Positions 41-43,325 of a stretch of 64,000 nucleotides of DNA are shown piece after piece. The position numbers and the translations under genes were made by a program. The notes beneath the pieces were generated by a model. That model was given only the letters and a program-made list of their open reading frames with translations, was not told the origin of the DNA and made no database searches. Origin of the DNA: Pontiella desulfatans (GTDB lineage: Bacteria; Verrucomicrobiota; Kiritimatiellia; Kiritimatiellales; Pontiellaceae); assembly GCF_900890425.1 (NCBI RefSeq), contig NZ_CAAHFG010000001.1, positions 2,604,001 to 2,668,000 on the forward strand, given 5' to 3'. The number at the start of each line of letters is the position of its first letter. Position 1 is the first letter of the stretch.

Positions 41-88
41 AGCCTATTGCGAGCCAGAGAATCCGTCATGTCACCAAAAGTGGTGACA
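41..88 (-). promoter_or_regulatory. Promoter with shared 24-bp element (site I)
   Basis: The element at 65-88 reads, on the minus strand, TGTCACCAC, TTT, TGGTGACATGAC. Its first 20 bases are a perfect dyad, TGTCACC-N6-GGTGACA. A weak -10 candidate TAGGCT (41-46) lies 21 nt after the TGACAT core, the same offset as at the other sites. It points off the left edge of the window, so the controlled gene is not visible. It lies just downstream of the response regulator stop. Confidence 0.55.
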
Positions 89-97
89 AGGGCATCC

Positions 98-742
98 TTA
101 GTGGAACCCGGTGAGTTTGGCGATGGCTTCCGTGCGGGAATGAACGTGGAGTTTTTCGTATATGCGGCGGATGTAGGTGTGAACGGTGTGGATGGAAATA
201 TCCAGTTCGTCGGCAATCTCCTTGTAGAGCCGCCCGCGGGCGAGCAGATTCAGCACCTGCGTTTCCCGCTCCGAGAGTTCGTCAAGTTCGCTCGGGAGCT
301 TGTTGCCATTCGGTTTCTGGAAAGACTGCACCACCTTTCGCGCAATGGTGCTGTCCATGGGCGACCCACCCGACGCCGCATCCTCCAAGGCCAGGAGAAG
401 GTCGGTTACAATGGTACGCTTGAGCAGATAGCCGACCGCTCCGACTGCCAGTGCCTCAAAGATGTATTCCGCCTCGTCATAGACCGTCAGGATCACAAAG
501 TTCGTCGCGGGCAACGATGGCTTGAGTTGCCGGATGCATTCGATGCCGTTCGCTCCCGGCATATTGATATCCATAAGTACGATATCCGGGGCGTCGGCCG
601 GAAGCCCGGCAATGGCTTCCTCGGCATTGGGATAGAGGTTGAGGCAGGAGAACCGATCCTTTTCCTCGCTAATCAGCTCGGAAATCAGTTCCCGTGTTCC
701 GCGGTCGTCGTCGACAATGCAGACGGTTATGTTTTTTTTCAT
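98..742 (-). CDS. NarL/LuxR-type response regulator (RR1)
   Basis: The 214-residue protein has a receiver domain (about residues 5-120) followed by a LuxR/NarL helix-turn-helix (about 150-210). The acidic pocket is visible (VDDD near the N-terminus), the phospho-acceptor is the D of VLMDINMPG, and there is a lysine in LLKRT. The HTH reads [28 protein letters not shown]. It is expected to be phosphorylated by the kinase encoded directly upstream, with which it overlaps by 4 bp (ATGA), and then to bind DNA. It is a close paralog of the regulator at 30878-31525. A regulated promoter with the shared 24-bp element lies upstream of the kinase, so the pair may be autoregulated; that link is inferred. 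Family assignment is firm, target genes are not. Confidence 0.93.
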
Positions 743-3609
743 TCGAAGTCCTTGTTGTTGCGGGGCAGTAGAAACTCCACATTGGTTCCACCCTCGCTGT
801 TTGATCGGATTGAAAAACTGCCGCCGATCATTTTCATGCGGCGCTTCATGTTTTCGAGTCCGCGCTGGAAGCGTTCGCTTTTGAGGTCGCCGATTCCCCT
901 GCCGTTATCGCTGATGGTGATGCGGATGCTCGCCGGCTGGATCGCCACCCCGAAAACCACCCGCTTGGCGGCGGCATGCTTCGTGATGTTGTTAAGCGCC
1001 TCTTTAATGGCCAGAAAAAGATTATGGCGGACTGGCCCCGGAACGGTTTGGGTCGGCAGCTCCATGGGAATATCCAGATCGCAGCCCATTTCGGTTTCAC
1101 GCAGGAAATTGCCCACATACTTGGAAAGGTAGGCCACCAGGCTGTCGAGCGTGTCGTTGATGGGGCGCACCACCCAGACAATCTCATCCAAAGACTGTAC
1201 CAGCTTTGCCGAGACGCGCTCCATCTCGCTGATGTGCCGCGGTGCGTTGGTGGAATCGTTCCTGCGCATCGCACTCGTGATGCGATTGCACAGCAGCGTA
1301 ATTCGGGTGAGCTCGGAGCCGATCTCGTCGTGGATATCCATGGCAATGCGCGTGCGCTCCTGCTCCACGGCGTGGAGGCTTTCGGCCCGGATCAGACGGC
1401 GGCGGTTGATGCGCTCGGCCACCCCCAGCGAAATCAGCACAATCAGGAAGAACCCGCCCATATACAGGGCCGTCTTGAACCACCAGGTTTCCCAGTAAAA
1501 AGCGGCTACCGAAAAAGAGAGAAATGCCGGTTCCGGATTCCAGACCCCGTCACTGTTTGAAGCCATCACCTCGAACCGGTACCGGCCCGGCGGCAGATGC
1601 TGGTAGCTGACGATGCGGCGCGTGCCCATGTTTACCCACTCGTCGCTGGCCCCCACCATCCGGTATTTGAAACGAATGCGCTGCGGGGCAATGTAGCTGA
1701 GCGCCGAATAGTTAATGTTCATGCGGTGAACCCCCGGTTCAAGCTCGATGGCATTGACGGTGTTGAGCCGGATCACCTCATCGTTAACCAGGGTATCTTT
1801 AATGACCACCGGCACCGCTTCCGTTCGCCGTTGGATATCCGATGGAACAACAATGGACAGATCACGACCGGAGGCAAACCATAGGCGCCCGTCGCTGCTG
1901 CGGCACGCGGTTGAAAACCCGGTGTCGACATACAGGGAGGGTTCCAACCCGTCGTTTGCATCCATAATGATCGGTGTACCGATGGCGCGCATCTCGCGCG
2001 CCCGGCCATAGAGCGCGTTGCGCTCCAGCACGGTAATGCCCTCCTCCACAACCATCCAGAACCGTTTCTTTTCGTCCTGCAGGATGTTCCCAATAATGTT
2101 TTGCGCCATCGGCACCGGATAGAAAACACCATCCTTCCATAGCAAAAGCCCGTTGCCGCAGGTTCCCACCCAGAGTCCGCCCCCGTCGGGATCGATATAA
2201 AGTGCTGTAATGTGCGGGTTCGGCAATCCCTCGTTTTTCCCGTAACGCGTCAGAATACCGTCACGTAGCGCAGCCAGTCCTCCGGTTTTCATGCCGAACC
2301 ACAGCGTGCCATTCTCGCTGCTTGCCATGCATTGGATATCCGAAACGCCATCGGCTTCCGAACAGACCATCCGCCACAAATCATTTTCCCCGCGCCACAG
2401 GCCGGTTTCCCCGCCAGCCCAGAGCACACCGGCATGATCTTCGTGAAGCGCCCAGACCCTATCCCCGGATCCTTCTGCCGGAAGAACCGCATTCGCCCCG
2501 TCAGAGCCTATCCGCATTAAGAAGCCGTTATCGTTATTGAGCCAAAGGGTTCCCGTTCGGTCTTCGATCAAGGCACGCACACTCCCGGAGGGTTCCAAAC
2601 CGGTAAGCTCGCACACCGAGCCCATATCAACCGAAAAAACCTGTCCCTTGCGGGTTCCCGCCCAGATCCCGCCGGCGCGGCGCGGAGCAATGGAGCGCAG
2701 TGTCTGAAAACGCCATTCACCGGTTTCGATTCCTGTATGCCGTTTCGTCCGGACGGCATTGAGCGCGTCAGTTGTGCCAACCCAAAGGGTTTGTTCATTA
2801 TCCTCGAAGAGCGAGAGCACCTGGTTGGCGGAAAGTCCTGTGCGTCGCTGCAGTTGTTCAAACGAACCATCCCGGTCGATAATGAAAAGTCCACCGAAGG
2901 TCGTGCCGATCGCGACGCTTCCGTTTGAGAGCTCAAGCAAATGGATTTTCTGCGTGGTTTTCCAGGGAACCTCGCCGAGGCTTTCGACCTCTTCATCACC
3001 CTCTAAACGAATGAGCTTCATGCGCCTTACCACCCACTCCCCACCCGAGCGACTGGGCGCAGCAGACGTTTTCCTGACATCGGAGACGCTCTCTTCAAAA
3101 GCGGCCGTCCCTTCCACGCCCACCCGCAGCACGCCGCCCGCTTCGTTGACCGCCCAGAGGACTCCCTCTTCAGTTTCGATGAAGTCGATGATGGGCAAGC
3201 CCGGCCAGCCTGGCGGCAGCGGAGCGGTAAAGAAATCGTTGTCCACGCGGAACGAAACATGCCCGGTATCATGCCCCATCCAGAGAATGTCGCGGGCATC
3301 TTCGTGCAACGAACGTATCCGGTTATCAGGGAGGTTGGGACTGTTCACGACATTGAAGGGCTGGAAGCGGATGCCGTCGAAGCGTGCGGCTCCGTTGAGG
3401 GTGGCCACCCAGATGAATCCGTTGCGCCGCTGGATGATATCGCCAACCTGCCCGAACGGCAACCCATCGCCCACCCGCCAGGTGCGGATCAGGAACGGGC
3501 TGATGCTTTCGCTGGGCACAACCTCGGTTGAAATGCCTGAAAAAGCCCCCAGTGCCATCCCGCAGCACAGGCCGGTTACCCGCAGCATCCAATATCTACC
3601 CCATCGCAT
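739..3609 (-). CDS. Membrane sensor histidine kinase with beta-propeller sensor and Y_Y_Y domain (HK1)
   Basis: The protein (956 aa from the first start) has an N-terminal signal or anchor segment, then about ten Reg_prop beta-propeller blades with repeats such as [29 protein letters not shown] and [17 protein letters not shown] domain ([10 protein letters not shown] ... [10 protein letters not shown]), one transmembrane helix, a HisKA_3 dimerisation domain with the phospho-histidine in [11 protein letters not shown], and an HATPase_c domain ([17 protein letters not shown]) follow. This resembles the sensor half of hybrid two-component systems that detect oligosaccharides in the periplasm, but the regulator is a separate gene. 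Met8 (3588) is an alternative start: the bases before it (TATTGGATGC) match those before the sialidase start at 6145. The ligand is unknown, presumably a fragment of the target polysaccharide. Confidence 0.92.
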
Positions 3610-3651
3610 AACCAGTACATATACTCCATTTGGCTTGCTAATAGAAGCCGC

Positions 3652-3675
3652 GACATGTCCCCAAAACTCGCTACA
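3652..3675 (-). promoter_or_regulatory. Shared 24-bp promoter element upstream of HK1/RR1 (site H)
   Basis: The minus strand reads TGTAGCGAG, TT, TTGGGGACATGTC. It lies about 43 bp upstream of the kinase start and 4 bp downstream of the sulfatase stop codon. No good -10 is seen at the expected 21-nt offset (CCAAAT), so this site may be weak or may need an activator. Confidence 0.6.
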
Positions 3676-3678
3676 TGG

Positions 3679-5061: not shown

Positions 5062-5062
5062 T

Positions 5063-6145: not shown

Positions 6146-6175
6146 CCAATACCTAGCCTTACCCCGAAACCCATA

Positions 6176-6223
6176 ATTATAGAGATAAGCCCCTTCCCTG
6201 TCATGTCCCCAAAACCAGCTACA
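6176..6223 (-). promoter_or_regulatory. Promoter with shared 24-bp element, sialidase-sulfatase operon (site G)
   Basis: The minus strand reads TGTAGCTGG, TT, TTGGGGACATGAC at 6200-6223. Exactly 21 nt after the GGACAT core lies a perfect -10, TATAAT (6176-6181). This is the clearest copy of the promoter architecture and fixes the phase for the other sites. The start codon is about 30 bp downstream. Confidence 0.75.
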
Positions 6224-6275
6224 ATAAAATGGTGTCAGTACTGAATGGTACCTTTTCTCGGGGCAAAAACGGCGC

Positions 6276-8078: not shown

Positions 8079-8079
8079 C
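8075..8079. repeat. Left copy of IS target duplication GCATC
   Basis: GCATC here is repeated at 9470-9474 and flanks the IS on both sides. On the minus strand it is GATGC and contains the ATG start codon of the DUF1080 gene. Confidence 0.7.
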
Positions 8080-9469: not shown

Positions 9470-9474
9470 GCATC
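9470..9474. repeat. Right copy of IS target duplication GCATC, holding the displaced start codon
   Basis: On the minus strand this reads GATGC, 5 nt after an AAGGAGG Shine-Dalgarno (9481-9487). It is the original start of the DUF1080 gene. Translation from here now gives only M-R-V-A-S-N and a stop inside the IS. Confidence 0.7.
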
Positions 9475-9536
9475 TGAATCCTCCTTCTGGAATACCTGGT
9501 AACCAGATACTTCATAGTTGTTTAATTGCCGAGCTG

Positions 9537-9584
9537 ACCATATCCCTGAATCTCGTCACGGTCATGTCACCAATTCAGGGGACA
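9537..9584 (-). promoter_or_regulatory. Promoter with shared 24-bp element, DUF1080 gene (site F)
   Basis: The minus strand reads TGTCCCCTG, AA, TTGGTGACATGAC at 9561-9584. The first 20 bases form a near-perfect dyad (TGTCCCC-N6-GGTGACA). The -10 TATGGT lies at 9537-9542, 21 nt after the TGACAT core. It now reads into the IS instead of directly into its gene. Confidence 0.7.
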
Positions 9585-9593
9585 CTCGTATGA

Positions 9594-9933: not shown

Positions 9934-9952
9934 ACTATCTCCCGGCACGGGC

Positions 9953-11572: not shown

Positions 11573-11673
11573 TTACATCTCCTGATCAAAAACATGTTTT
11601 TACTTACGCACTGAACGCCTGCCTGTTTCCGGGCCTATCTCGCAACCACCATGCCTCCGTAAATAAGTAAAAC

Positions 11674-14518: not shown

Positions 14519-14566
14519 TTTATATTCCAACCCGCTGTAAATGTCATATCCCTTGAATTGGCTACA
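14519..14566 (-). promoter_or_regulatory. Promoter with divergent copy of the shared element (site J)
   Basis: The minus strand reads TGTAGCCAA, TT, CAAGGGATATGAC at 14543-14566, a weaker match. It has a good -10, TATAAA (14519-14524), at the standard 21-nt offset. The -10 ends only 7 bp before the ATG at 14511, so a transcript started here would be leaderless or nearly so. Confidence 0.5.
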
Positions 14567-26088: not shown

Positions 26089-26136
26089 AACATATCGCGG
26101 AACAGGATTTCCGTCATGTCACCAAAATTAACTACA
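26089..26136 (-). promoter_or_regulatory. Promoter with shared 24-bp element, module array (site E)
   Basis: The minus strand reads TGTAGTTAA, TT, TTGGTGACATGAC at 26113-26136, with -10 TATGTT (26089-26094) at the 21-nt offset. Between the -10 and the start at 26021 there is a hairpin, GGAAGCG/CGCTTCC, in the predicted leader (about 26050-26072). Confidence 0.72.
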
Positions 26137-30809: not shown

Positions 30810-30856
30810 AAAGTACCATTTAAAGAAAAGTTGTCATGTCGCCGAAACTAACTACA
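30810..30856 (-). promoter_or_regulatory. Promoter with shared 24-bp element, metalloprotease gene (site D)
   Basis: The minus strand reads TGTAGTTAG, TT, TCGGCGACATGAC at 30833-30856. A TACTTT -10 candidate (30810-30815) sits 20 nt after the CGACAT core, one base closer than at other sites. The gene starts at 30760. Confidence 0.65.
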
Positions 30857-30877
30857 GAGGGGGGCTTGAAAAAAAAC

Positions 30878-31525
30878 CTATTCCAGGCCGACAAACTTGG
30901 CCACGGCCTCCGAGCGGGAGTGGACATGGAGCTTTTCGTAGATGCGGCGGAGGTAGGTGTTGACTGTGTAGGGCGAGATGTCGAGCTCGTCGGCGATCTC
31001 CTTCGCGAGCCTGCCGCGGGCCAGCAACCGAAGCACCTGCATTTCGCGTTCCGAAAGTTCATTGAGTTCATCCGATTGTCCGGACGCAGGCGCAGGTTGC
31101 TGGAACGATTGCACCACCTTGCGGGCAATGTCGCTGTCCATCGGAGAGCCGCCCGCCGCCACTTCGTCCAATGCGGGCAGCAGGTCGTCGACCACGGAGC
31201 GTTTCAGGAGATAGCCCACCGCACCGGCAGCCAGCGCCTGGAAGATGTAGTCCGTCTGGTCGTAGACGGTCAGCATCACGAAATCGGTGTCGGGCATTTG
31301 GGGCTTCAGCGCCGTTACGCATTCGATGCCGTTTTTGCCGGGCATGTTGATGTCCATAAGGATGATGGACGGGCGGAGCCGCGGGAGTTCCTCCACGGCC
31401 TGGGCCGAATCGCCGAAAACACCGATGCATTCATATTTGGACTCGTCCCGAATCAAATCCGCAATCATCTCGCGCGTGGCCTCATGGTCATCCACGATGG
31501 CAATCGTAACCGTCTTATCACTCAT
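30878..31525 (-). CDS. NarL/LuxR-type response regulator (RR2)
   Basis: The ATG at 31525 ([19 protein letters not shown]) overlaps the kinase stop by 4 bp (ATGA), which decides the start over a longer open frame. The protein has 215 residues: receiver domain with phospho-acceptor in [12 protein letters not shown] and LLKRS, then a NarL-type HTH ([28 protein letters not shown]). The two receiver/HTH proteins of the window are near-identical over the recognition helix region ([29 protein letters not shown] versus [20 protein letters not shown]), so they may bind the same DNA site. It is a candidate binder of the 24-bp element. Confidence 0.93.
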
Positions 31526-34401
31526 TTGATGTTCTCCGGAATGGGCATCATAAATTCGGCGGTGGTGCCGCCGCCCTCGTTGCTGCGGATATCGCATTGC
31601 CCCTTCATGATATCCATCCGGCGGCGCATGCTTCGCAGCCCGCGCTTGAACCGCTCGCTCTCGAAAGAGTCGAGCCCCTTGCCGTTGTCCGTAATCCTGA
31701 CCGTCAGCCTGCCGTCGGCGATGGCCGCGCTAAACACCACCTTGCTTGCATCCGAGTGCTTCACGATGTTGTTGACCGCCTCCTTGACCGCCAGGAAGAG
31801 GTTGTGCCGGACATGCCCGGGAACGGGGGTAAGCGGCAGTTCGAGCGGCAGGTCGATCTCGGGCCGGATATCGGTGGTGCGGAGATAGCTGGAGACATAT
31901 TTCGCGAGATAGCCCACCATGTTGTCCACGTTGTCGTTCCCCGGGCTGACCACCCAGACAATCTCGTCGAGCGAAAAGACCAGCTTGCGCACCACCTGAT
32001 CCATTTCGCCAATGCCGGCCAGGGCGCGCGCCACCCCGTCCGTTGCAGCAGTGCGTTGAACCTTATGGCAGAGCAGTTGCATGCGGGTGAGCTCGGAACC
32101 GATTTCGTCGTGGATGTCCATGGCAATGCGGGTGCGCTCCTGCTCCACCGCCTTGGCCTGCTCGGCGAGGATCAGTCTTTTCCGGCTCATCCGTTCGGCA
32201 ATGCTCAAGGAGATGAACGCCACAATTCCCACCCCGGCGGAATAGCATAGGGTTTTGAACCACCAGGTTTCCCAGTAGTGCGGCTGGATGTTGATATCCA
32301 GCCCCAATGGCTCCCGGTTCCAAACCCCGTCGCGGTTGGCCGCGGTGAGTTCGAAACGGTAGCTGCCCGGCGGAAGCCGCTGGAATGTGGCGAACCGCCG
32401 GCTTCCCAGATCGATCCATTCCTCGCCGATCCCCTTCATCCGGCAGCGGAACCGCAGGCTGGTCGGGGTGCCATGGCTCAGGGCGGCGAAGTGGATGTCC
32501 AGCCGGTTGACCCCGGGCGCCAGCCCCAGTTTTTCCCGGCCCTCGACCGCGATCGGGCTTTCGTTCACCACGGCGTCCGTAACCCGTAGCGGCACGCTGT
32601 TGCTCCATAGGCTGATGGCCTCGGGGTAGAAGGTTGCAACCTGGCGATCGGCGGCGAACCAAAAACAGCCTGCGCCTCCCTGGCAGGAGGTGGATAGCCC
32701 CGCATCGATATCGATCGGCGCATCGAAGCCATCCTCCTTCCCGAACAGCACGTGGACTTCGATTGTTTCGCCGGTTCCGGCGGCGCGCCGGGCCATCGCC
32801 TTATCCACGACGGCTACGCCGTGCTCGCCCACCACCCACAGGCGCCCCGCACCGTCGTCCAGGATATGCGACACGATAAGCTGGCCAAGCGGCACCTCTA
32901 AAATGCGGCCATGGCTGAGCACGGCCAGCCCGTTGCCGCATGAGCCGATCCAGAGCGTATCCGCATCCTTGTCGATGCACAGTGCCGTCACATACTCGTT
33001 CGGCAACCCGTCCGCCCGGCCATAGTGCGTCAACCGGTCATCCCGCAGCGAGGCCAATCCGCCCTCCTCCATGCCAATCCAGAGGGTTCCATCGGTCGCC
33101 TCGGCCATGCAGCGAACCTGAGCGACGTTTCGTTTCGAACCAAACGCCAGATGCCAGCGCCCTCCGGCATTGTTCCATAAGCCCTTGTCGCCTCCCGCCC
33201 AGAGCACGCCGTTGCGGTCTTCATGGAGCACCCAGATGCGCTCGCGTGCCTTCTTTGCGGACATCACCTTTTGCAGTTTCCGCCCGTTCGACCGCAAAAG
33301 GAAACCCTCGTCGTCGTTGAACCACAGCGCGCCCTCCGAATCCTCAAGGAGCGCACGGCGCACCGTTTCCCCGTGCAGTTCCGGATGGATCCGTCCCAGC
33401 CCGTCTTCATCCATGAACCAGATATTGCCCTTGTTTGTACCGATCCATACCCCGCCATCACGCCTCGGTGCAATCGAACGGACGGCCTGAAATTTCCATG
33501 CCGTACCTCCCAGACGCTGCTGCCGGAACCCGACCGGGCGGATGAGTTGAAGGCCCGACGTAGTCCCCACCCAAAGCAGGCCCTCGGCATCCTCGGCCAA
33601 ACAAAGCACCGTACTCGATGCGAGCCCCTCGGCCGCCGTAATCTGCACCGCTTCACCGCCGGAGTGCCGCAGGATGAAGGCCCCGCCGTGGGTCGACCCC
33701 GCCGCCAGGTCTCCGTTGGCGAGCTCCAGAAGAACGATGGGCTGCTCCTCGATCACCCAAGGGGTTTCGCCGCGGTCTTCGGCAACCTGCTCGTTCTCGA
33801 TCCTGACCACCCGCTCCTGCACCACCTCCCAACGAACGACCGGCTTCGGCAGGTCATCCCCGTCGACCGGCTCCGGTTCCTGCAAGGGAACCCCGTTCCG
33901 GGCAACCAGCAGGGCGCGCCCTCCAGGTGCCAGCGCCCAGACGCTCCCGGTCTCGTCTTCACGGAACCCGGTCACCGGCCTGCCCGTCCATTCGGCGGGG
34001 CAGTCGAGCACCCGGAAGCCTTCCGCCTCCCGGATCGTTACATGCCCGGTGGCATGCCCGAGGAAAAGGTTGCCCGCCCGATCCTCGTGGAGTTTGGACA
34101 CCCGGTTGTTCGGTAGCATGGGGAACATGCGTTTGTTGAACGGCTCGAATTCAACGCCATCAAAACGCGCCGCCCCGTTGAGTGTTGCAACCCAGACAAA
34201 GCCGTTGCGACGCTGAACAACATCCTCCACCCGGTTGAACGGCAAGCCGTCGCCCACCTTCCAGGTTTTGATTACGTAGCGTTGGTCTTCCCAGACTTCG
34301 CCGGCGGATAACCGGCCCGGCAGCGCCAGCAGCAAGGAAGCCAACGCAATCCCGCGGATTGCGCATGCGGCCACAGCTTCCTTTACCTGCTTCTTTTTCA
34401 T
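31522..34401 (-). CDS. Membrane sensor histidine kinase with beta-propeller sensor and Y_Y_Y domain (HK2)
   Basis: A 959-residue paralog of HK1 with the same order: signal segment, Reg_prop propeller repeats ([47 protein letters not shown]), Y_Y_Y domain ([14 protein letters not shown] ... [10 protein letters not shown]), one transmembrane helix ([18 protein letters not shown]), HisKA_3 with [15 protein letters not shown], and HATPase_c ([19 protein letters not shown]). Unlike HK1, its upstream region lacks the shared 24-bp element; it has a 12-bp dyad GGTATGTATACC (34430-34441) instead. It may therefore be expressed independently and act above the regulon; this is inference from promoter content only. 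Confidence 0.92.
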
Positions 34402-34481
34402 GGAACCTCGTTTAAAGCGTTGTTCACGGTATGTATACCGGTCGCAACCGATCCATCAAAGCGCTAAACGGCCCGCCAAAC

Positions 34482-34514
34482 GAAAAAGGCTCCACGGTGA
34501 TGCGGGGAGCCTTG
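34482..34514 (-). terminator. Intrinsic terminator after the GH43-like gene
   Basis: The minus strand forms AAGGCTCC (loop of 13 nt) GGAGCCTT followed by TTTCG: an 8-bp stem with a T-rich 3' side, 22 bp after the GH43-like stop. It separates that gene from the HK2/RR2 pair. Confidence 0.75.
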
Positions 34515-34536
34515 ACGGATCGACCTGGAACAAGGG

Positions 34537-35682
34537 TTAGAATTTCTGCACCTCGTCCGGGCCGGGCGCGGCGTAGGCCGGATCCTTGGCGCGGATATAA
34601 ATATCGCCGTCGTCCTGAATCTTTACTTCCAACGGTACGATCGTGGTACCGCGGTGGTTGATGGTCTGGGCGGTCTCGGAAAGATCGCGTTCCTGAATGC
34701 CTTCAACTTCCAGAGGCAGGACGTTCGCGTTGTAGAACGCGGTGCACCACCACTTTCCGTCGCGCGTCTGGAACGGTGTGCCATGGCCGAGGAAACGACC
34801 GGCAAACTTGCGCGGCCCGTAGGTGCCGTCGATCGAATCCGAGGTGCAATAGTACAGGTTATAGGAACCCTGCCGTCCCATGTCGGTCGACCAGGCCGTG
34901 CCGAAATGAACATACTTGTTTCCGATCTTGCGGACGGTTGCACCCTCGTGGCCGATCACTGACTTTTTCTCGCCTTTTGAGTTTACGCGGGAACCGGCCG
35001 GATCAATCCGTTTCGGATTGGCGGTGTAGGCCGTGAAATCCTTGTTCAGCGGAGCAACCTCGGTGTTGCCCCAAAGCAGCCAGTAGGTGTCGCCATCCTT
35101 GAAGAGCGACGGATCGTGACGCCCTCCCAGGTTTTTACCCATGGGATGCGTCCACGGCCCCTTGATATCCGTACCCGCACTCAATGCCAGATTGGCTTTG
35201 CCCTTCGGACAATGCACCAAGGCCCAACGGTTCATCTCTTCGATCCAGTGCACTTCCGGTGCCCAGATGACATTGCCCGGCTTTTTGTGAAAACTGTCTT
35301 CGAGCGTGAACGGTGTTCCGAGATATTCCCAGTCGATCAAATCCGGGCTGCGCCAGATCTGCACCACGCTGCCCACGGCGGACTGGTTTCCAAGACCGGG
35401 GTTGTAGGGATCGGTTTCCTCGCGCGGATCGTCGGGATTGATGGTGGTTCCGGTCAGATAATACTGGTCGTCGGGCCCCATCACAATGTAGGGATCGCGG
35501 ATCCAGCCCTCCTTGATGTAGAGCGCCTTATCGTGGCTCTTCAACCCGGCTTCGATCTCCGCCCTCGCCATGGCGGGGCGCACGGGGCCAACCAACGGGC
35601 CGTCGTGCAGCAGCATTTGCGCATCCGCCGACCCGGCGGCGGCAAGGGCGCCCAACATAAAACCACACATCATCTTCTTCAT
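34537..35682 (-). CDS. Secreted GH43-like glycoside hydrolase
   Basis: A 381-residue protein with a signal peptide (MKKMMCGFMLGALAAAGSADA) and a single five-bladed propeller domain of the GH43/GH117 superfamily. Likely catalytic acids are D in GWIRDPYIVMG, D in GGRHDPSLF and E in VIGHEGATV. The closing region (PFQTRDGKWWCTAFYNAN) is typical of this clan. GH43 members act on arabinan, xylan or galactan side chains and GH117 on agar oligosaccharides; the sequence does not decide between these. It has its own promoter (site C) and an intrinsic terminator, so it looks monocistronic. Confidence 0.85.
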   Translation of the reverse strand: MKKMMCGFMLGALAAAGSADAQMLLHDGPLVGPVRPAMARAEIEAGLKSHDKALYIKEGWIRDPYIVMGPDDQYYLTGTTINPDDPREETDPYNPGLGNQSAVGSVVQIWRSPDLIDWEYLGTPFTLEDSFHKKPGNVIWAPEVHWIEEMNRWALVHCPKGKANLALSAGTDIKGPWTHPMGKNLGGRHDPSLFKDGDTYWLLWGNTEVAPLNKDFTAYTANPKRIDPAGSRVNSKGEKKSVIGHEGATVRKIGNKYVHFGTAWSTDMGRQGSYNLYYCTSDSIDGTYGPRKFAGRFLGHGTPFQTRDGKWWCTAFYNANVLPLEVEGIQERDLSETAQTINHRGTTIVPLEVKIQDDGDIYIRAKDPAYAAPGPDEVQKF

Positions 35683-35715
35683 GCTTCTCTCCTTGATTGT
35701 TCCAATAAGCCCAAC

Positions 35716-35763
35716 ACCATAATCATTTCCGGTCGCAACGTCATGTCACCAATTCTAGCTACA
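35716..35763 (-). promoter_or_regulatory. Promoter with shared 24-bp element, GH43-like gene (site C)
   Basis: The minus strand reads TGTAGCTAG, AA, TTGGTGACATGAC at 35740-35763, with -10 TATGGT (35716-35721) at the 21-nt offset. The stop codon (TAG) of the upstream sulfatase lies inside the element, at its TGTAG end. Confidence 0.75.
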
Positions 35764-37135
35764 TGGAGATCTTCCAATCTTCGGGAGCAACAAAACCCTC
35801 GCGTCCCTCCTTGTAGGGCGGCACGGCGTTTTGTGGCTGGAGCTTCCGGAACAAAACAAGCTTTGCGAACAACTCTTCCACCGTTTCCGGGTGTTCGGCG
35901 GCGACATCCTTCGACTCGTTTGGATCGGATGCGATATGGAACAGCTCGATCTTCTGGGCGCCCACGCGCCCGCCCAGCACGTCCGGGCCATTGACGACCA
36001 GTTTCCATTCCCAGGAAATGACGGCATTGCGCTCCTTATCGCTCCCCTGCTGGCCGTGGTAAATATAAAGATCGCGTGCAGGCAGCCGATCCGTTTTGCC
36101 CGACAGCAACGGATTCAGATCGATTCCATCGAAGGGTTTCACCGGTTGTTCGACGCCTGCCAACCGCAGCAGAGTTGGCATGACATCGATGAACGCCATG
36201 CGCGCCGAAAGCTTGCGGCCGCCCGGATAGTCGGCCGGATAGCGCACGCAGGCCGGAACGCGAACACCGCCTTCGTAGGCCGAAAGCTTGGCGCCGTTCA
36301 GCGGGCTGTTGCCGCCCGAGATGCCCCCCTCGGCCCCGTTGTCGCTGAGGAACCAGACGATGGTGTTTTCAGCTTCGCCCGTCGCCTCGATGGTTTCGAG
36401 GATTTCCCCAACGGCCTCGTCCATGGCAGAGATCATGGCCAGATAGGTTTGCTTTTTCTTGTCCTTGAAACGCGCGTAGGGCGCGCGGTATTCCTCCGGC
36501 ACCTGGAACGGCGAGTGCGGCGCGTTGAACGGCACATAGCAAAAATAGGGTGCGTCGCCCTTCGCAGCATCGCGGATGAATTCCGAGGCGTGCCCGCCGA
36601 TCAGTGTCGTTGCGTACCCCTCCTCCCGGAGGCTTTCGCCATTACGGTGCCAATCGAGTTCGTCATCGCGCTCGTGGGTGAAATAATCGATCGCACCGTT
36701 GTAGCAGCCGATGAAATCGGTGAAACCGCGGTTGTTCGGGTGCCATTTTGTCTGCGCATGGCCCAGATGCCACTTGCCGAAGACCCCGCGCTTTTCATAG
36801 CCCGCCTCCGCGAGCGCGTCGGCCAGCGTGGTTTCATCCACAGGCAGGCCGAAGTCGCGCCAGGGTGGAATAACGGCACGGGCGCAACCGTAGCGGATCG
36901 GATAGCGTCCGGTCAGCAATCCGGCCCGGGTCGGACTGCACATGGGCGAGACGTAGAAGTTGTCCAGTTCAAGTCCCTCCCTGCAGAGGCGGTCGAGGTT
37001 CGGAGTCTTCACCCCATCGGGGTTATGCCACCCCACCGAATTCCATCCCAGATCGTCGGCCAGGATCAGCACAATGTTCGGAGCAACTGCCCAAGCTGAA
37101 GATGCAACCAGTAGCAGTGCCATGAGCCTTCTCAT
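35759..37135 (-). CDS. Secreted S1 sulfatase, last gene of five-sulfatase operon
   Basis: A 458-residue arylsulfatase-A-type enzyme: signal peptide (MRRLMALLLVASSAWA), metal site LADDLGWNSVGW, formylglycine motif in SPMCSPTRAGLLTG, then FGKWHLGH, NAPHSPFQ and SDNGAEGGISGGN. All active-site positions I can check are present. The short C-terminal part (SDPNESKDVAAEHPE) is typical of the family. It overlaps the preceding sulfatase by 4 bp (ATGA), so translation is coupled. The substrate position (which sugar carbon) is not readable. Confidence 0.94.
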   Translation of the reverse strand: MRRLMALLLVASSAWAVAPNIVLILADDLGWNSVGWHNPDGVKTPNLDRLCREGLELDNFYVSPMCSPTRAGLLTGRYPIRYGCARAVIPPWRDFGLPVDETTLADALAEAGYEKRGVFGKWHLGHAQTKWHPNNRGFTDFIGCYNGAIDYFTHERDDELDWHRNGESLREEGYATTLIGGHASEFIRDAAKGDAPYFCYVPFNAPHSPFQVPEEYRAPYARFKDKKKQTYLAMISAMDEAVGEILETIEATGEAENTIVWFLSDNGAEGGISGGNSPLNGAKLSAYEGGVRVPACVRYPADYPGGRKLSARMAFIDVMPTLLRLAGVEQPVKPFDGIDLNPLLSGKTDRLPARDLYIYHGQQGSDKERNAVISWEWKLVVNGPDVLGGRVGAQKIELFHIASDPNESKDVAAEHPETVEELFAKLVLFRKLQPQNAVPPYKEGREGFVAPEDWKISM

Positions 37136-38751
37136 TTTTCCCCCTTTTTCTTTTTAACCGGCTTTGGATAAACCAGGTCTTCATCCGCCCAGCGCTTCCA
37201 GGCGGCCATCATTTGCGAGGCGCGTTCGGGCTGTTCGGTAATAAGGTTGTTGAGTTCGGTTCGATCCTTCGACAGGTCGTACAGCTCCCAGAGATTCTTC
37301 TTCACGCCGACATTGGCGGCCACGCCCTTGCCGACGAGCTTCCAGTCGCCGTCCATCATGAAGGCATTGTTTTCATGTTCGGAAAACATCGGAGCGCGCC
37401 GCTGGATCGGCTTACCTTCGAAGGCGGGAGCCAACGATACCCCGCGCAATGGATGGATTTTTTTGCCACCGAACTTTTGAGGATAGGTTGCCCCGGTGAT
37501 TTCCAAAACGGTCGGCATCACATCGATGAGCTGCGCGGGTGATTCATACCACTCATCAACCGGCTTGATGCGTTTTGGCCAGTGCATGAAGAAGGGCGTA
37601 GCCGCGCCGCCCTCGTGGGTGTAGTGCTTGTAGAGGCGGAACGGCGTGCTCGAAACATTTGCCCAGGCGGCGCCATAGTTGTTGCCGGTCTCCTGGTTGC
37701 GTTTATTAACATCCATGATTTCACCGCGGCCCAGCGGCGGCCCCTCGGCGCAGGCGCCGTTGTCGGAGAGGAACATAATCAAGGTGTTGTCGAGCTGCCC
37801 GTTCTTTTCCAGGGTCTGGACGAGTTTGCCGATGTTCCAGTCGACGCGGTCGATCATGGCGGCATAAACCGCCATGCGCATATCCATTTCCTGCTGCTTT
37901 TCGGCGTCGAGCGACTCCCAGGCCGGAACCTTCGGATCGCGCGGCGAGAGCTTCCACTCCGGTTTGATCAACCCGAGCTCGATCTGGCGTTTGTAGCGCT
38001 GTTCGCGCAGGGCATCCCAGCCCTGCATGTATTTCCCGGCATAGTTGGCAATGTCCTCCTCGTGGGCCTGATGCGGCCAGTGCGGCGCGGTGTAGGCCAG
38101 ATAGAGAAAGAACGGCCGATCCTGCCCCTGCTTCTCCTCGTTGATAAAGCGGATAGCATAATCCGTGAAAGCGTCGGTCGTGTAGAACGGGCGGTCGGTG
38201 GTGCTCTTCTTTTCCGTGTCGGTTTCGTTTCCGAAAGTCATATCGCGTTCATTGAACGGATAGAAAAAGCGCGTGGCACCGGCAATGCAACCGTAGTATT
38301 TTTCGAACCCGCGCTGCAACGGCCAGCGATCCTGATCGTTATAGCCGAGGTGCCACTTGCCGGTCATCAGCGTGGCATAGCCCGCCGGCTGCAGCACCTC
38401 GGCAATCGTCACGCACTCGCGGTTGAGAAAGCCGCGGTAGTTCGGGAATTCTTCCCCGGCATCGTGTCCCTTGCTGTTCGGCGGATTGGTCATGTGGCCG
38501 ATGCCGGTGAGGTGCGAGTGCAACCCGGTCATAAGCGACGCGCGCGTCGGGCAGCAGCGCGACCCGTTGTAGAAGCGGGAGAAGCGCACTCCGTTGCCCG
38601 CCAGACGATCCATGTTGGGTGTATTGATTTCGCCGCCGTAGCAGCCGATATCGGAATAGCCCATGTCGTCGACCATAATCAACGCGATGTTGGGACGCGG
38701 CGCGGCGGCGGCGGAAAGAGCGATCAGCAGGGAGGGCAGCAGAATCTTCAT
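37132..38751 (-). CDS. Secreted S1 sulfatase
   Basis: A 539-residue enzyme with signal peptide (MKILLPSLLIALSAAAA), MVDDMGYSDIGCYGGE, formylglycine motif in SRCCPTRASLMTGLH, TGKWHLGY, TAPHWPLQ-type His region (TAPHWPHQA) and SDNGACAEG. The insertion between the GKWH and PHW motifs (GCIAGATRFFYPFNERD) and the C-terminal WKRWADEDLVYPKP with a lysine-rich end are typical of large arylsulfatase-A-like bacterial enzymes. Its stop overlaps the next start by 4 bp and its start overlaps the previous stop by 1 bp. Its N-terminal region resembles the first part of the chimeric gene at 11674-14511 (CGWSD/CYGGE, TRASL, GIGHM). Confidence 0.94.
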   Translation of the reverse strand: MKILLPSLLIALSAAAAPRPNIALIMVDDMGYSDIGCYGGEINTPNMDRLAGNGVRFSRFYNGSRCCPTRASLMTGLHSHLTGIGHMTNPPNSKGHDAGEEFPNYRGFLNRECVTIAEVLQPAGYATLMTGKWHLGYNDQDRWPLQRGFEKYYGCIAGATRFFYPFNERDMTFGNETDTEKKSTTDRPFYTTDAFTDYAIRFINEEKQGQDRPFFLYLAYTAPHWPHQAHEEDIANYAGKYMQGWDALREQRYKRQIELGLIKPEWKLSPRDPKVPAWESLDAEKQQEMDMRMAVYAAMIDRVDWNIGKLVQTLEKNGQLDNTLIMFLSDNGACAEGPPLGRGEIMDVNKRNQETGNNYGAAWANVSSTPFRLYKHYTHEGGAATPFFMHWPKRIKPVDEWYESPAQLIDVMPTVLEITGATYPQKFGGKKIHPLRGVSLAPAFEGKPIQRRAPMFSEHENNAFMMDGDWKLVGKGVAANVGVKKNLWELYDLSKDRTELNNLITEQPERASQMMAAWKRWADEDLVYPKPVKKKKGEK

Positions 38752-40130
38752 CAGGGGTTCTTCCTTTTCTTTTTGGGACTGGCCTTCTTGCCGGCGCCCA
38801 TGCGTTCGAGCGCCTTCATTTCAGTGGCCTGCCCTTCGTCGCCGCAATGCGCCATCCAGCGCTCCAGCTCGGTAGCCAGCTCCTTTTTCACTTCGTCATA
38901 TTCCGGGTTATCGGCCAGGTTGTGCATTTCGAGCGGATCGTTCACAACATCATACAACTCGATAGCCGGCCGGAACGTGTAGCGTTGCACCAGCGCCGCG
39001 GCCTTGGGATCGCCGGCGGCGGCCTTGGCCTGCCAGCTCCTGAACTCCTTCGACCGGGTGCAGGCATTCCGGAATTCCATCTCCGGCGTGAAGTTCAGAA
39101 TATATTTGAAGCGTTCGGAGCGGACGGAACGGATGCCGAAATGGTCGGAACCATTGTTGATGCCCCGCGTCGTCATTTCGCCAAAGACAAATTCCTTATG
39201 TTGCTGCTTTCCTCCAAAGACTGAGAGCAGGCTTTTGCCATCCAGCACCCCGGCCGGCGTACCGCCCGCCGCTTCAATAAAGGTCGGAAGAATATCCACA
39301 TATTCAATCATCGCCTTGTTCACCGAACCGGGCTTGATCCTGCCGGGCCAGCGGGCGAGGAAGGCGGATTGCAGGCCGTTGTCGTAGCACGTCCATTTCG
39401 CGAACGGGAACGAACTGCCCTGCTCGCTCACAACAATCACCAAGGTGTTTTCGGCCATTCCGTTTTTTTCAAGCAGCGCCAGAGCTTCGCCCACCTGCGA
39501 ATCGTAGTAGGTGATCTCCGCCAGGTAGCGCGACATCGCCTCGCGCGTTTCCGGCGTGTCCGCGAAATAGGGCGGAAGCTGGATTTTGGCCGGCGGATAG
39601 CGCGAGGCATCGCCCTTGTCCCACGGGGAGTGCGGCTCGTTGGAACAGAGTAGCAGGCAGAAGGGTTCGGACTTGCCTTTGCAGTCGGCCATGAAGGCAT
39701 CCACCTTGTCGAACTCCGGGTTGTTGACCGTGCCCAGTTTTTCCCATGCAAAGACCGAGCCGGGACTTACGTGGGTCTTGCCGCTCTGCGCCACCCGGTA
39801 GCCGAGCGCACCGAGATATTGCACGACGCTCTTCATGTCGGGATCGACATGCGTGTGGTTCGGATAGGCACCGCTCTTGACGGGATATTGGCCGGTATAG
39901 ATGTTGTGGCGCGTCGGCGAGCACATCGGAGCGGCCTGGAAGGCGCGCGTGAACTTCATGCCCTCCCGGGCCAACTGGTCGATGTTCGGCGTGTACGCCT
40001 GGCCGCCGTAGCAACCAATGTCGCGGAACGTGCAATCGTCCGCGATCATGAAAACAAAGTTCGGCTTTTCCGCCGCCCAAACCGAGGCCGCAGCCAGCGC
40101 GATAGAAACAAGCGTGATTAGTCTTCTCAT
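38751..40130 (-). CDS. Secreted S1 sulfatase (heparan-N-sulfatase-like)
   Basis: A 459-residue enzyme: signal peptide (MRRLITLVSIALAAASVWA), MIADDCTFRDIGCYGGQ, formylglycine motif in APMCSPTRHNIYTGQ, SGKTHVSPG, SNEPHSPWDKG and SEQGSSFPFAKW. The ADDCTFRD and SEQGSSFPFAKW signatures place it with the sulfatase at 3679-5061, which has ADDCTHND and SEQGSQFPGCKW, so these two are probably the same subfamily with related substrates. It is the third from last gene of the operon. The 84-bp gap to the preceding gene contains a degenerate dispersed repeat (about 40149-40199). Confidence 0.93.
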   Translation of the reverse strand: MRRLITLVSIALAAASVWAAEKPNFVFMIADDCTFRDIGCYGGQAYTPNIDQLAREGMKFTRAFQAAPMCSPTRHNIYTGQYPVKSGAYPNHTHVDPDMKSVVQYLGALGYRVAQSGKTHVSPGSVFAWEKLGTVNNPEFDKVDAFMADCKGKSEPFCLLLCSNEPHSPWDKGDASRYPPAKIQLPPYFADTPETREAMSRYLAEITYYDSQVGEALALLEKNGMAENTLVIVVSEQGSSFPFAKWTCYDNGLQSAFLARWPGRIKPGSVNKAMIEYVDILPTFIEAAGGTPAGVLDGKSLLSVFGGKQQHKEFVFGEMTTRGINNGSDHFGIRSVRSERFKYILNFTPEMEFRNACTRSKEFRSWQAKAAAGDPKAAALVQRYTFRPAIELYDVVNDPLEMHNLADNPEYDEVKKELATELERWMAHCGDEGQATEMKALERMGAGKKASPKKKRKNP

Positions 40131-40148
40131 AGTTACACCTCATTTAAC

Positions 40149-40199
40149 TGATTTTTTCACCACAGAGATCTCAGAGAACAGCGCTTCAGTGAGATTATT
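40149..40199. repeat. Degenerate copy of dispersed palindromic repeat
   Basis: The sequence CACCACAGAGATCTCAGAG ... CTTCAGTGAGATTATTCCTGTG is an imperfect inverted repeat of the same style as those at 47064-47134 and 48610-48671 (ACCACAGAGAC... type). It sits between two sulfatase genes. Relationship to the other copies is by composition and arm pattern only. Confidence 0.4.
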
Positions 40200-40214
40200 C
40201 CTGTGAATCCCTTA

Positions 40215-41831
40215 TTAGCCTTTTTTCTTTTTGTTGCCGTTTTTCTTTGGCTTGTTCCCGCTGCCCATCGCCTTGGTGCGTTTCGCCCAGGCATCCCATT
40301 CCCGTTCCAAGGTTGCCACCAACTCCGGGTGCTTCGCGGCGAGGTCTTTCGTTTCGCAGGGGTCGGCGGAAAGGTCGAACAGCTCCCAGTTTTTGTTGGG
40401 ATAGCGATCGTTGCCCTTGACCATTTTCCACGTGCCCTTCTGGATGGCCCTGGCGCCGAAGTGCTGATAGCACAGCGTGCGCGAGTTGAGCGCATTGCCC
40501 GGCCTGAACAGCGGCGCGAGGCTCACGCCTTCCATCGGTTGAACGGATTCGGGATAACGTGCGCCGCTCACATCCACCATCGTGGACATGATATCGACAA
40601 TATGCGCGGAGTCGCGCACCCAGCGGCCCGGCGCTTCGACGCCCTTTGGCCAGTGCACGATGAAGGGCGTCACAATGCCGCCCTCGTGGCAATAGTGCTT
40701 ATACATGCGGAACGGCGTGTTGCACAGGTTCGCCCAGGCCGACCCGCCGGAAATGTAGGATCCGGGCCCGCCGATGGTTTCGAGCTCCGCCACCGTGTGC
40801 AGTTTGGTGATCCCTGCGCGCGAATGCTTATCGAAGCCGAGCGGCCCCCACTCGTAGCACGCACCGTTGTCGGACAACACCATGATGACCGTGTTTTCGT
40901 AGTCGCCCGTCTTTTTAAGCTGCTCAACAATCCGCCCGATACCGTCGTCGACGTGCCTGACCATCGCGGCATAGAGCGCCATGCGGTGCGCAAGATCCTC
41001 CCGCAGGTCAGTATCAAGGTCATTCCAGGCCGGATTCGGCTCGCCGGAATAGCCGTTCGCGATCTGGTTGTTCTGTTCAACCGGCACCACCGACCGATCC
41101 GTCAGAGCCCACCCTTCGCCCTCGGCCAGCCCGATGCGCTTGAGCTTTTCAAAGCGCTCCGAGCGGAGCACATCCCACCCCTTGCGGTAGGTATCGACGA
41201 ACGGCTTGACCGATTCGATCGGCGCCTGCAACGGAAAGTGCGGCGACGAGTGCGCGAGATACATGAACCACGGCGTGTCCTTTTTTTCCGCCTGCTTCAA
41301 AAACTCCAGCGCATATTCGGTGAACACATCCGTGGCATAGAAATCCTTCACCTTGATTTCCGGCTCCCGCCCTTTCGGCAGCCGCACATATTTTCCCGGC
41401 GACCATTGGTCTTGGGAGTGCCCGGCGGGATAGCCATAGAACTCGTCGAACCCGCGGTCGGTCGGAACGTGCCCGACGTGCCATTTGCCCACCGCGTAGG
41501 TCTGGTAGCCCGCGCCGCGCATCACTTCGCCCAGCGTGGCGCAGTCTTCGACCAGCGCGCCGCCGAAATTGGGGATGCCCGTCTGGCCCGGATGCAGGCC
41601 CGTCATGAGCGAGGCGCGGCTGGGGCAGCAGCGTGCGGAGTTGGTCATGCGCGTAAAGCGCAATCCGTTATTTCCCAGCCGATCGATGTTCGGCGTTGGA
41701 ATTTCGCCGCCGTAGCAGCCGAGATCGCTGAAGCCGAGATCGTCGAACAGCACGATCATAACGTTTGGCCGTTCGGCGAACGAACCCAACCCCATCAACA
41801 TACACAGCATCGTTAACCAGTGTTTCATCAT
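40215..41831 (-). CDS. Secreted S1 sulfatase
   Basis: A 538-residue enzyme: signal peptide (MMKHWLTMLCMLMGLGSFA), LFDDLGFSDLGCYGGE, formylglycine motif in SARCCPSRASLMTGLHPGQ, VGKWHVGH, SSPHFPLQ and SDNGACYEWGP. A large insert between the two metal-site halves (LTDRSVVPVEQNNQIANGY) is shared in position with the neighbour at 37132-38751. The C-terminus is lysine- and asparagine-rich (NKPKKNGNKKKKG), also like that neighbour. It follows the first gene of the operon by only 6 bp. Confidence 0.94.
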   Translation of the reverse strand: MMKHWLTMLCMLMGLGSFAERPNVMIVLFDDLGFSDLGCYGGEIPTPNIDRLGNNGLRFTRMTNSARCCPSRASLMTGLHPGQTGIPNFGGALVEDCATLGEVMRGAGYQTYAVGKWHVGHVPTDRGFDEFYGYPAGHSQDQWSPGKYVRLPKGREPEIKVKDFYATDVFTEYALEFLKQAEKKDTPWFMYLAHSSPHFPLQAPIESVKPFVDTYRKGWDVLRSERFEKLKRIGLAEGEGWALTDRSVVPVEQNNQIANGYSGEPNPAWNDLDTDLREDLAHRMALYAAMVRHVDDGIGRIVEQLKKTGDYENTVIMVLSDNGACYEWGPLGFDKHSRAGITKLHTVAELETIGGPGSYISGGSAWANLCNTPFRMYKHYCHEGGIVTPFIVHWPKGVEAPGRWVRDSAHIVDIMSTMVDVSGARYPESVQPMEGVSLAPLFRPGNALNSRTLCYQHFGARAIQKGTWKMVKGNDRYPNKNWELFDLSADPCETKDLAAKHPELVATLEREWDAWAKRTKAMGSGNKPKKNGNKKKKG

Positions 41832-41837
41832 GACCTT

Positions 41838-43208
41838 CTATTTGTTTGAGGGTTGGATTTCATGCGGCGTCGGGCCGCTGAGCGGATAGGGCTGGTGCTC
41901 CAGTCGGATCGTATCGCCCTGTTCCTTCATCCAGTCGTCGAGCATGGCCGACATCTTCGCGATCTGCGCCTTATACTCCGGATTGCCGGCAAGGTTGATC
42001 TGCTCCTGCGGATCCTTCTCCAGATCGAAAAATTCGATTTCCGGGCGCTGGTAATATTTCTGAATGACGGCCTTCGCTTCAGGATTGTTTTTCGCGGCGG
42101 CATCCCACGAATCCCAATAGGCTCCGGCACCGTCCTTGCGATGGATATCGGAATGGTTGGAGTGGTAGCAGTCCGGATGCGTGTTGCGGATATACTTGAA
42201 GCGCTCGGTGCGCACGCTGCGCATCGGGTAGACGTTCATTTTCACGTCGCCGGTGTGCGTTGTGAAGATGGCGTCGCGATGCTTTTCCGCCTTTCCCGTC
42301 AACACATTTGCGAACGACCGGCCGTCGATATCCGCCGGACTTTCTCCGCCAACGAGTTCCAGCAGGGTCGGGAAGATATCGATCCAGCTCACCATGGCAT
42401 CCGTGCGCGTTCCGGGCTTCACCTTGCCCGGCCAGCGGACAATCATCGGCACATTGATACCGGCATCGTAGAGGTTCCACTTGCCGAAGGGCCATTGGCC
42501 TCCGTGGTCGGCGGTATACATGAAGAGATAGTCGCGGTTTCCGAAATAGGCTTCGGCCAGCTCGTCCACCCGCCGCATTTCGTCGTCCATGCCGGTGACG
42601 TCGGTCAGGTAGCGCGCCCAGTGCTCGCGCGTTTCGGGGGTATCGATGAAATGCGCGGGCAGGGTGATCTTTGCCGGATCATAGTCCATCTGCTTCGTCC
42701 ACGGCACATGCGGACGACGGTCGCCCACCATCAGGCAGAGCGGCTTTTGCGACGTCCGTTGCTTCAGGAATTTTTCGACGTTCTCCGCCAGTCCGGTCTT
42801 TTTGGGAAAGTCGTGGTCGAACCCCATCATGGTTGCATAGTTGTTGTGCGCCACTTTGCCGAATGCGACCACCTCATAACCTGCCTGCTTCAGGTGCTTG
42901 ACCATCACCTGCGTTTCGGGGCGCGGCTTAACGTGGTTGCCTTCCGCCCCGTTGCGCGCCGGCATCAGGCCACTGAGCAACGCCGACCGGCTGGGGCCGC
43001 AGGCGGGCGAAGCCACGAACGCATGATCGAAAACCAATCCGTCCTTCGCCAGCGACGCCATCATCGGAGTCCGCACCTCTCCGCCATAGACCTGGCATTC
43101 CGCCCGCCCGTGGTCGTCCGCCAAAAAAATCACCATGTTCGGTTTTTCCGCCGCCAATGCGCCCACGCAAAAAACCAAACCCAATGCCATTACCCATCGT
43201 TCATTCAT
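41838..43208 (-). CDS. Secreted S1 sulfatase, first gene of five-sulfatase operon
   Basis: A 456-residue enzyme: signal peptide (MNERWVMALGLVFCVGALA), FLADDHGRAECQVYGGE, formylglycine motif in SPACGPSRSALLSGLMPARNG, FGKVAHNN, DRRPHVPWTK and TADHGGQWPFGKW. The DHG at the second metal site and the GKVAH motif resemble sulfamidase-like enzymes, as for the genes at 3679 and 38751. It is transcribed from a promoter with the shared 24-bp element 55-78 bp upstream of its start (site B), divergent from the GH2 gene. Confidence 0.93.
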   Translation of the reverse strand: MNERWVMALGLVFCVGALAAEKPNMVIFLADDHGRAECQVYGGEVRTPMMASLAKDGLVFDHAFVASPACGPSRSALLSGLMPARNGAEGNHVKPRPETQVMVKHLKQAGYEVVAFGKVAHNNYATMMGFDHDFPKKTGLAENVEKFLKQRTSQKPLCLMVGDRRPHVPWTKQMDYDPAKITLPAHFIDTPETREHWARYLTDVTGMDDEMRRVDELAEAYFGNRDYLFMYTADHGGQWPFGKWNLYDAGINVPMIVRWPGKVKPGTRTDAMVSWIDIFPTLLELVGGESPADIDGRSFANVLTGKAEKHRDAIFTTHTGDVKMNVYPMRSVRTERFKYIRNTHPDCYHSNHSDIHRKDGAGAYWDSWDAAAKNNPEAKAVIQKYYQRPEIEFFDLEKDPQEQINLAGNPEYKAQIAKMSAMLDDWMKEQGDTIRLEHQPYPLSGPTPHEIQPSNK

Positions 43209-43238
43209 TGTTCCACCTTTCGTTATCCAAAAGACGGT

Positions 43239-43286
43239 ATGTTAGCGCAATCCCGGACGAAGATCGTGTCACTTAAACTAGCTACA
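43239..43286 (-). promoter_or_regulatory. Promoter with shared 24-bp element, five-sulfatase operon (site B)
   Basis: The minus strand reads TGTAGCTAG, TT, TAAGTGACACGAT at 43263-43286, with -10 TAACAT (43239-43244) at the 21-nt offset. It lies back-to-back with site A. Confidence 0.65.
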
Positions 43287-43301
43287 AGCCCCCGCCGCCG
43301 G

Positions 43302-43325
43302 TGTCACTCACATTGGTGACATGAC
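43302..43325 (+). promoter_or_regulatory. Shared 24-bp element, GH2 gene (site A)
   Basis: The plus strand reads TGTCACTCA, CA, TTGGTGACATGAC. The dyad TGTCAC-N8-GTGACA is perfect. It is the only copy on the plus strand, and it precedes the only plus-strand gene of the left part, 50 bp before its start. That orientation match is strong support for a promoter role. No clear -10 is seen at the 21-nt offset (TTCCCT). Confidence 0.68.

Follow-up and report, generated by a model that had tools for sequence, protein, structure and literature searches.

A dyad-promoter element shared by sulfatase and glycosidase genes of Pontiella desulfatans and its predicted control by adjacent two-component regulators

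The element and its promoter geometry

The window analysed here is a 64,000-nucleotide (nt) stretch of the 8,658,305-bp genome of Pontiella desulfatans (G000), C1:2604001-2668000. It holds two pairs of genes for a Reg_prop/Y_Y_Y/HisKA_3 sensor kinase and a NarL-type response regulator (HK1-RR1 and HK2-RR2), together with sulfatase and glycosidase genes and ten copies of a 24-bp element that an earlier note had proposed as a promoter element defining a regulon (Table 1). Judged from the DNA, the element is very probably a promoter-embedded binding site for the adjacent two-component switch, which would turn on the sulfatase and sugar-cutting genes of this marine bacterium; related switches in distant relatives adjoin like sites.

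All ten copies were confirmed at the positions and on the strands reported earlier, by direct reading and then by matrix rescoring. Their scores ranged from 25 to 39 bits with a weight matrix trained on these same sites; the best of 11 matches in a 400-kb reversed-DNA control reached 15.7 bits. The repeat pattern as first written recovered just five of the ten with at most three mismatches (0 in 100 shuffles), although all ten carry the element; in the other five the right half was kept and the variation lay mostly on the left. The right half, GGTGACATGAC, was nearly invariant among the window copies, and the left halves were of the TGTCA/TGTCG or the TGTAG/TGTAA types. Since the best left halves pair perfectly with the right, the element was read as a 20-bp dyad (TGTC-type and GACA-type arms around a 6-bp middle) followed by TGAC and thus fused to a -35 box, ATGAC. 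Perfect dyads were found at 65-88 (TGTCACC-N6-GGTGACA) and in the relative G016 (TGTCGCC-N6-GGCGACA).

ATGAC plus the next base forms a -35-like box 17 bp ahead of a TANNNT box, and this is a better reading than the CATGAC box with an 18-bp spacer suggested before, which it replaces. A TANNNT box began 18 nt past the element at six window sites (65, 6200, 9561, 26113, 35740, and 43263), TATAAA occupied the same place at site 14543, and site 30833 had TANNNT at 17 nt; with TATAAA allowed, this agrees with the seven boxes at 21 nt and one at 20 nt of the original count. Sites 3652 and 43302 had no TANNNT at 17-18 nt. Over 26 genome sites, TANNNT stood at offset 18 in 12 and at any other tested offset in 0-4. 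The spacing of the -35 and -10 boxes, about 17 bp, is that of a sigma-70-type promoter. A well-conserved -35 region at a fixed distance from the -10 might also be expected of a promoter for an alternative, extracytoplasmic function sigma factor, an explanation to which we give almost no weight: the -35 is preceded by a 20-bp dyad symmetry, the -10 boxes are TANNNT of the sigma-70 type, and no sigma gene was present among the cluster proteins scanned, which cover part of the cluster genes.

Nine of the ten window sites were followed by a start codon at a distance of 30-91 nt, one of these genes lying past the edge of the window. The exception is 9561-9584, where the first open reading frame (ORF) of at least 60 aa starts 188-197 nt away and is transposase-like. 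This ORF (8140-9372, minus strand) had no Pfam match, and only a tiny ORF separates it from the site, which is the weakest in the window; its original target may have been replaced by an inserted element. Leaderless mRNAs are predicted for sites 65-88, 14543-14566, and genome position 2594263, where the element is 30-31 nt and the -10 box 6-7 nt ahead of the start codon.

Two clusters of sites and the regulators encoded there

The genome was searched with a 24-position profile built from 24 sites out of the 26 known at that stage (cut-off E<=10; 150 of 1439 first-look candidates scored). It returned 27 matches, 26 of them in two clusters (2591377-2647325 and 2759904-2818525, about 113 kb apart and both within 227 kb) and one marginal match on C4. 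A matrix scan of 400 kb added one further site, 2805233 (23.5 bits). The element is thus a local regulon of 26-27 sites in two clusters, and a genome-wide regulon was ruled out, 26 of the 27 profile matches being inside the clusters. No copy was present at 45-64 kb of the window, as had been noted; the second cluster begins 92 kb past the window end. The expectation that a genome scan would find matches ahead of sulfatase and glycosidase units at a fixed -10 offset was borne out, with the correction that these matches are confined to the two clusters. Likewise, the element does mark a regulon by these features; its core is the 20-bp dyad plus the -35 box and not one asymmetric box.

All 13 first-cluster sites were oriented towards the next gene. 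One of the 27 sites overlapped a gene (with rough gene calls), and over both clusters a same-strand called gene followed within 250 nt of 19 of 27 sites, compared to 14% of random intergenic places; the remaining second-cluster sites lay ahead of ORFs missed by the gene caller or of short broken ORFs. Proteins past the sites included sulfatases, glycoside hydrolases (GH) of families GH43, GH2, GH106, and GH92, and a PEP-CTERM protein, while several had no Pfam match. A PEP-CTERM sorting signal was seen in two proteins past sites (L241:10772-11539 and G000:C1:2814869-2815528).

Some of these copies could be explained by a repeat that has spread, or by promoter duplication with no regulator in common: sites 14543 and 2594263 precede similar sulfatases, and sites 2780216 and 2789446 are identical. 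However, most first-cluster sites share the element and the -10 alone, with different spacers, and the layout recurs beside the same regulator in other lineages, so that this explanation is scarcely credible.

The second cluster encodes a third regulator, RR3, whose kinase HK3 shares 45% identity with HK1 and 51% with HK2. RR1, RR2, and RR3 are 61-63% alike, and the next full-length regulator in the genome reaches 41-42%. All three gave Pfam Response_reg and GerE matches above the cut-off, which places them in the NarL/FixJ family. The phosphorylation-site residues D11, D12, D58, T86, and K108 did not vary in an alignment of 10 regulators. The stop codons of the three cluster regulators are followed by a site after 9, 21, and 42 nt, and each pair is downstream of a site: 3652 precedes HK1-RR1, 35740 precedes GH43-HK2-RR2, and 2805233 precedes several genes and then HK3-RR3, presumably as operons. 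A fragment of a regulator (G000:C1:2780288-2780443, L072), comprising part of its DNA-binding end and sharing 71% identity with RR1 across 52 residues, lies just before site 2780216 as the remnant of a regulator-site pair. Around other regulators of this genome (20 neighbourhoods, 400 kb), there was one match of at least 12 bits, compared to five in reversed DNA; a looser pattern gave four matches and one control match, numbers too small for interpretation.

A XylR/AraC-type regulator gene (56660-57832, plus strand) stands beside a sodium:solute symporter gene and an alpha-galactosidase at 54246-57835, probably a separate sugar regulon.

Table 1 Sites of the element and neighbouring genes in the window
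Feature	Position	Strand	Context
Site, C6 subtype, perfect 7-6-7 dyad	65..88	-	9 nt past RR1 stop; predicted to drive a 1016-aa ORF beyond the window edge, no Pfam match
RR1, response regulator, Response_reg + GerE, helix residue H188	98..742	-	
HK1, sensor kinase: Reg_prop, Y_Y_Y, HisKA_3, HATPase_c	739..3609	-	
Site, C6	3652..3675	-	42 nt ahead of HK1-RR1
Site, C6, TATAAT at 18	6200..6223	-	54 nt ahead of BNR_2 ORF, then sulfatase
Site, C6, TATGGT at 18	9561..9584	-	Next ORF transposase-like, 188-197 nt off
Site, C6, TATAAA at 18	14543..14566	-	31 nt ahead of sulfatase, then GH43
Site, T6, TATGTT at 18	26113..26136	-	91 nt ahead of 275-aa ORF
Site, T6, TANNNT at 17	30833..30856	-	21 nt past RR2 stop; 72 nt ahead of 1505-aa ORF
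RR2, response regulator, N188	30878..31525	-	Longer ORF to 31597; with the shorter start, 4-nt overlap with the end of HK2
HK2, sensor kinase with the domain set of HK1	31522..34401	-	
GH43 enzyme	34537..35682	-	First gene past site 35740
Site, C6, TATGGT at 18	35740..35763	-	57 nt ahead of GH43-HK2-RR2 (presumed single transcription unit)
Five consecutive sulfatase ORFs	35759..43208	-	Downstream of site 43263
Site, C6, TAACAT at 18	43263..43286	-	54 nt ahead of sulfatase row
Site, C6, no TANNNT at 17-18	43302..43325	+	Divergent partner of 43263
GH2 enzyme	43376..45253	+	Putative target of site 43302

Sites beside related regulators in other bacteria

Loci encoding homologous regulators (the best 80 of 360 candidates) were scanned with the matrix trained on this genome alone, at a threshold of at least 14 bits. 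Seventy-three of the 80 were not from the Pontiella group; most of them bore the label Verrucomicrobia or one of its orders, and some just "bacterium". Within this set of 73, the scan found 32 matches in 24 loci, compared to none in reversed DNA; several matched loci are close relatives carrying the same site. Seventeen matches lay within 300 nt of the regulator gene (1.66 expected), 14 of these on the regulator strand, and 21 of the 32 had TANNNT at 17 or 18 nt. An HK1-like kinase was encoded in 69 of the 80 loci. A generic scan for dyad plus GAC without fixed ends gave no excess (77 matches, compared to 82 in reversed DNA), and the fixed ends therefore matter. One fully symmetric site, L182:13025-13052 (G323), has TGAC on both sides and could serve two divergent promoters.

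Within the genus (28 genomes; regulator cut-off E<=1e-45), the regulator was present in G000, G015, G016, G018, and G027, and the pattern in G000, G015, G016, and G027 and, with one mismatch, once in G001. Sites were thus found in four of five regulator-bearing genomes, compared to a lone one-mismatch match among the 23 others; the reversed control pattern gave two matches, both in G013.

Across the class (345 genomes; E<=1e-50, up to 8 candidates per genome scored), 40 genomes had the regulator, and the profile at E<=0.01 matched in four genomes, all within these 40. A composite pattern of the dyad ends, [A/T]GAC, 18 nt, and TANNNT occurred in 18 genomes, 14 of the 40 with the regulator and 4 of the 305 others (Fisher p 2e-11, with no correction for relatedness); 31 of its 39 matches fell in the 40, and the reversed control gave three. 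The pattern with a 17-nt spacer was not enriched (five matches in 4 of 345 class genomes, compared to six controls). Of these four others, G020 had three sites. Two were at a distance of about 2 kb from regulators with 36-37% identity to RR1 and the same 10-residue helix stretch, which no other regulator carried among the 14 inspected of the 20 in this genome; the third was on a 9.6-kb contig without a regulator. G189 (79% complete) had three sites, two of which matched those of relatives exactly, and G272 and G309 had one match each. In the class set, which was picked by pattern, positions 4-8 were complementary in 7-10 of 12 distinct non-Pontiella sequences; in the Verrucomicrobiota set, picked by matrix, arm pairing went little beyond what column composition alone gives. 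Support for the dyad symmetry is drawn from the former set and not from the latter.

RR1 residue 188 aligns with NarL K188, a DNA-contacting residue, and the sites fall into two subtypes, C6 and T6, by the base at position 6. In the 73 loci, where a site lay no more than 300 nt from a regulator, H188 went with C6 in three of three and N188 with T6 in 11 of 12, the exception being an adjacent site, L239:10709, with N188 and C6. Over all 32 matches, the figures were four of five and 17 of 23; exceptions farther than 300 nt from the regulator may belong to other regulators. In P. desulfatans, RR1 (H188) adjoins a C6 site, and RR2 and RR3 (N188) adjoin T6 sites; 11 of 13 first-cluster sites are C6, the two past RR2 being T6, and in the second cluster every one of the 14 sites is T6. 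G027, which has only an RR3 orthologue, had T6 at 12 of 12 sites, and G016, with only an H188 regulator, had C6 at four of four; base 6 was mixed in G015, which has five regulators.

The dyad could instead be bound by another regulator, either the XylR/AraC-type protein or an unlinked one, with the two-component genes as mere targets. A XylR-type regulator is indeed encoded in the window, and sites do precede the kinase-regulator genes. However, no site lies beside the XylR-type gene (the nearest is 13 kb off), adjacency of site and response regulator is kept in other lineages, and base 6 tends to track the helix residue of the regulator, which makes this alternative very improbable.

It is possible, though we would not rely on it, that throughout the class and the Verrucomicrobiota the sites share one frame (TGT...ACA ends, a TGAC -35, and TANNNT 17-18 nt on), with residue 188 setting half-site base 6 (H to C, N to T, A to A) and the regulator sequence predicting the regulon. 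RR1 would then read eight window sites, including the one before GH43-HK2-RR2, and RR2 the two just past its own gene; if true, this split would place a second glycan sensor under the control of the first, as a cascade.

Proposed operator-promoter and comparison with known systems

We consider it likely that the element combines operator and promoter, and that it serves NarL/FixJ-type response regulators whose genes lie within these clusters. Computed here were the dyad, the promoter geometry, the confinement to two clusters, the co-occurrence and adjacency with the regulator in other genomes, and the partial agreement between residue 188 and base 6. From these we infer binding, activation rather than repression, use of the housekeeping sigma factor, and the signal, as follows. 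The Reg_prop/Y_Y_Y kinase, probably sensing breakdown products of sulfated polysaccharides, would phosphorylate its regulator (RR1 or RR2; RR3 in the second cluster). A regulator dimer would then bind the 20-bp dyad TGT[CA]NNN-N6-NNNGACA abutting the -35 box ATGAC and from this position assist housekeeping RNA polymerase both at the -35 and at the TANNNT box, 17 bp downstream. Sulfatases, glycosidases, and the kinase and regulator genes would thereby be turned on. With the -10 box set at -12 to -7, the dyad would span about -54 to -35 and be centred at -44.5, the position of a polymerase-touching activator; promoter-proximal sites near -44 are known for the NarL/FixJ family. The distance from operator to -35 was fixed in the sites of this genome and in those elsewhere.

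The same regulator and operator could also work by repression, the dimer beside the -35 box blocking RNA polymerase until the signal releases it. The dyad does abut the -35 box, and the -35 is near consensus, so these promoters might fire unaided. The fixed dyad/-35/-10 distance in distant lineages suits a polymerase-touching activator, and the kinase-regulator genes themselves sit in site-led units; neither point is decisive, and we regard repression as unlikely.

Several observations weigh against an operator of these regulators. In P. desulfatans the left arm of the dyad is degenerate. NarL's own sites are of the 7-2-7 type, whereas here 7-6-7 dyads are fused to a TGAC -35 box. Three C1 matches outside the clusters (2685294, 2883213, and 2886181) scored 19.3, 17.0, and 18.7 bits, above the best reversed-DNA control of 15.7 bits; these are possibly weak or decayed sites. 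In the other bacteria, 49 of the 73 homologue loci had no match, and three of the 17 adjacent matches aim at the regulator from its 3' side. H188 occurs in 41 of the 80 loci, yet just five of the 32 matches come from H188 loci; most H188 homologues may use another operator. In G018 the regulator has 55% identity and an unchanged helix end, and no site was found in the 20 kb searched. Variant sites beside this regulator were considered, and none fits. Just past the 3' end of this regulator (G018:C133, 55077; L188) is a 19-bp dyad, TGTAGC-7-GCTACA, with no TGAC following, perhaps a drifted site. Finally, none of the tests was corrected for relatedness.

Pontiella is rich in sulfatases, and the literature searched is silent on how they are switched on; no such operator was described in it. 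The words "promoter", "regulat", and "motif" do not occur in the accessible main text of the P. desulfatans paper, and "promoter" and "motif" are likewise absent from the available part of the P. agarivorans paper, which does report that kinases and response regulators occur close to sulfatases. With the regulator named and its operator readable, enzymes co-acting on one polysaccharide could be predicted, here and in related bacteria, and the match between helix residue and base would make NarL-type DNA recognition testable by single substitutions.

The regulators resemble those of the NarL/FixJ family (VraR, NarL, DevR/DosR) in having a receiver and a GerE domain, and VraR, NarL, and DevR gave the best profile matches among solved structures; a difference lies in the putative targets, which are polysaccharide enzymes. 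LuxR shares the GerE-type DNA-binding domain, and the lux box is likewise a 20-bp dyad just upstream of the -35; however, LuxR is an autoinducer receptor, and here the input is a two-component kinase. The sensors recall the hybrid two-component systems (HTCS) of Bacteroides, such as BT4663: HK1 and HK2 combine Reg_prop/Y_Y_Y with a histidine kinase, and the closest solved structure is 4a2l, a Bacteroides HTCS sensor. The available portion of one report describes the role of HTCS in polysaccharide loci (PMC11253607). In an HTCS, sensor, receiver, and AraC-type helix-turn-helix domain form one polypeptide, whereas in the window the kinase and the regulator have an ORF each, with GerE as the output domain. 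The accessible part of Haft 2006 (PMC1569441) describes PrsK/PrsR of Proteobacteria, with a cis element that is matched by phylogenetic profile and lies ahead of exported-protein genes; it states that further motifs were still to be found and leaves open PEP-CTERM regulation outside Proteobacteria. The present system is similar in combining a cis element with a two-component pair and in having two PEP-CTERM genes among its putative targets. PrsR, however, is a proteobacterial NtrC-type sigma-54 regulator, whereas the sites described here combine sigma-70-type promoters with a NarL-type regulator.

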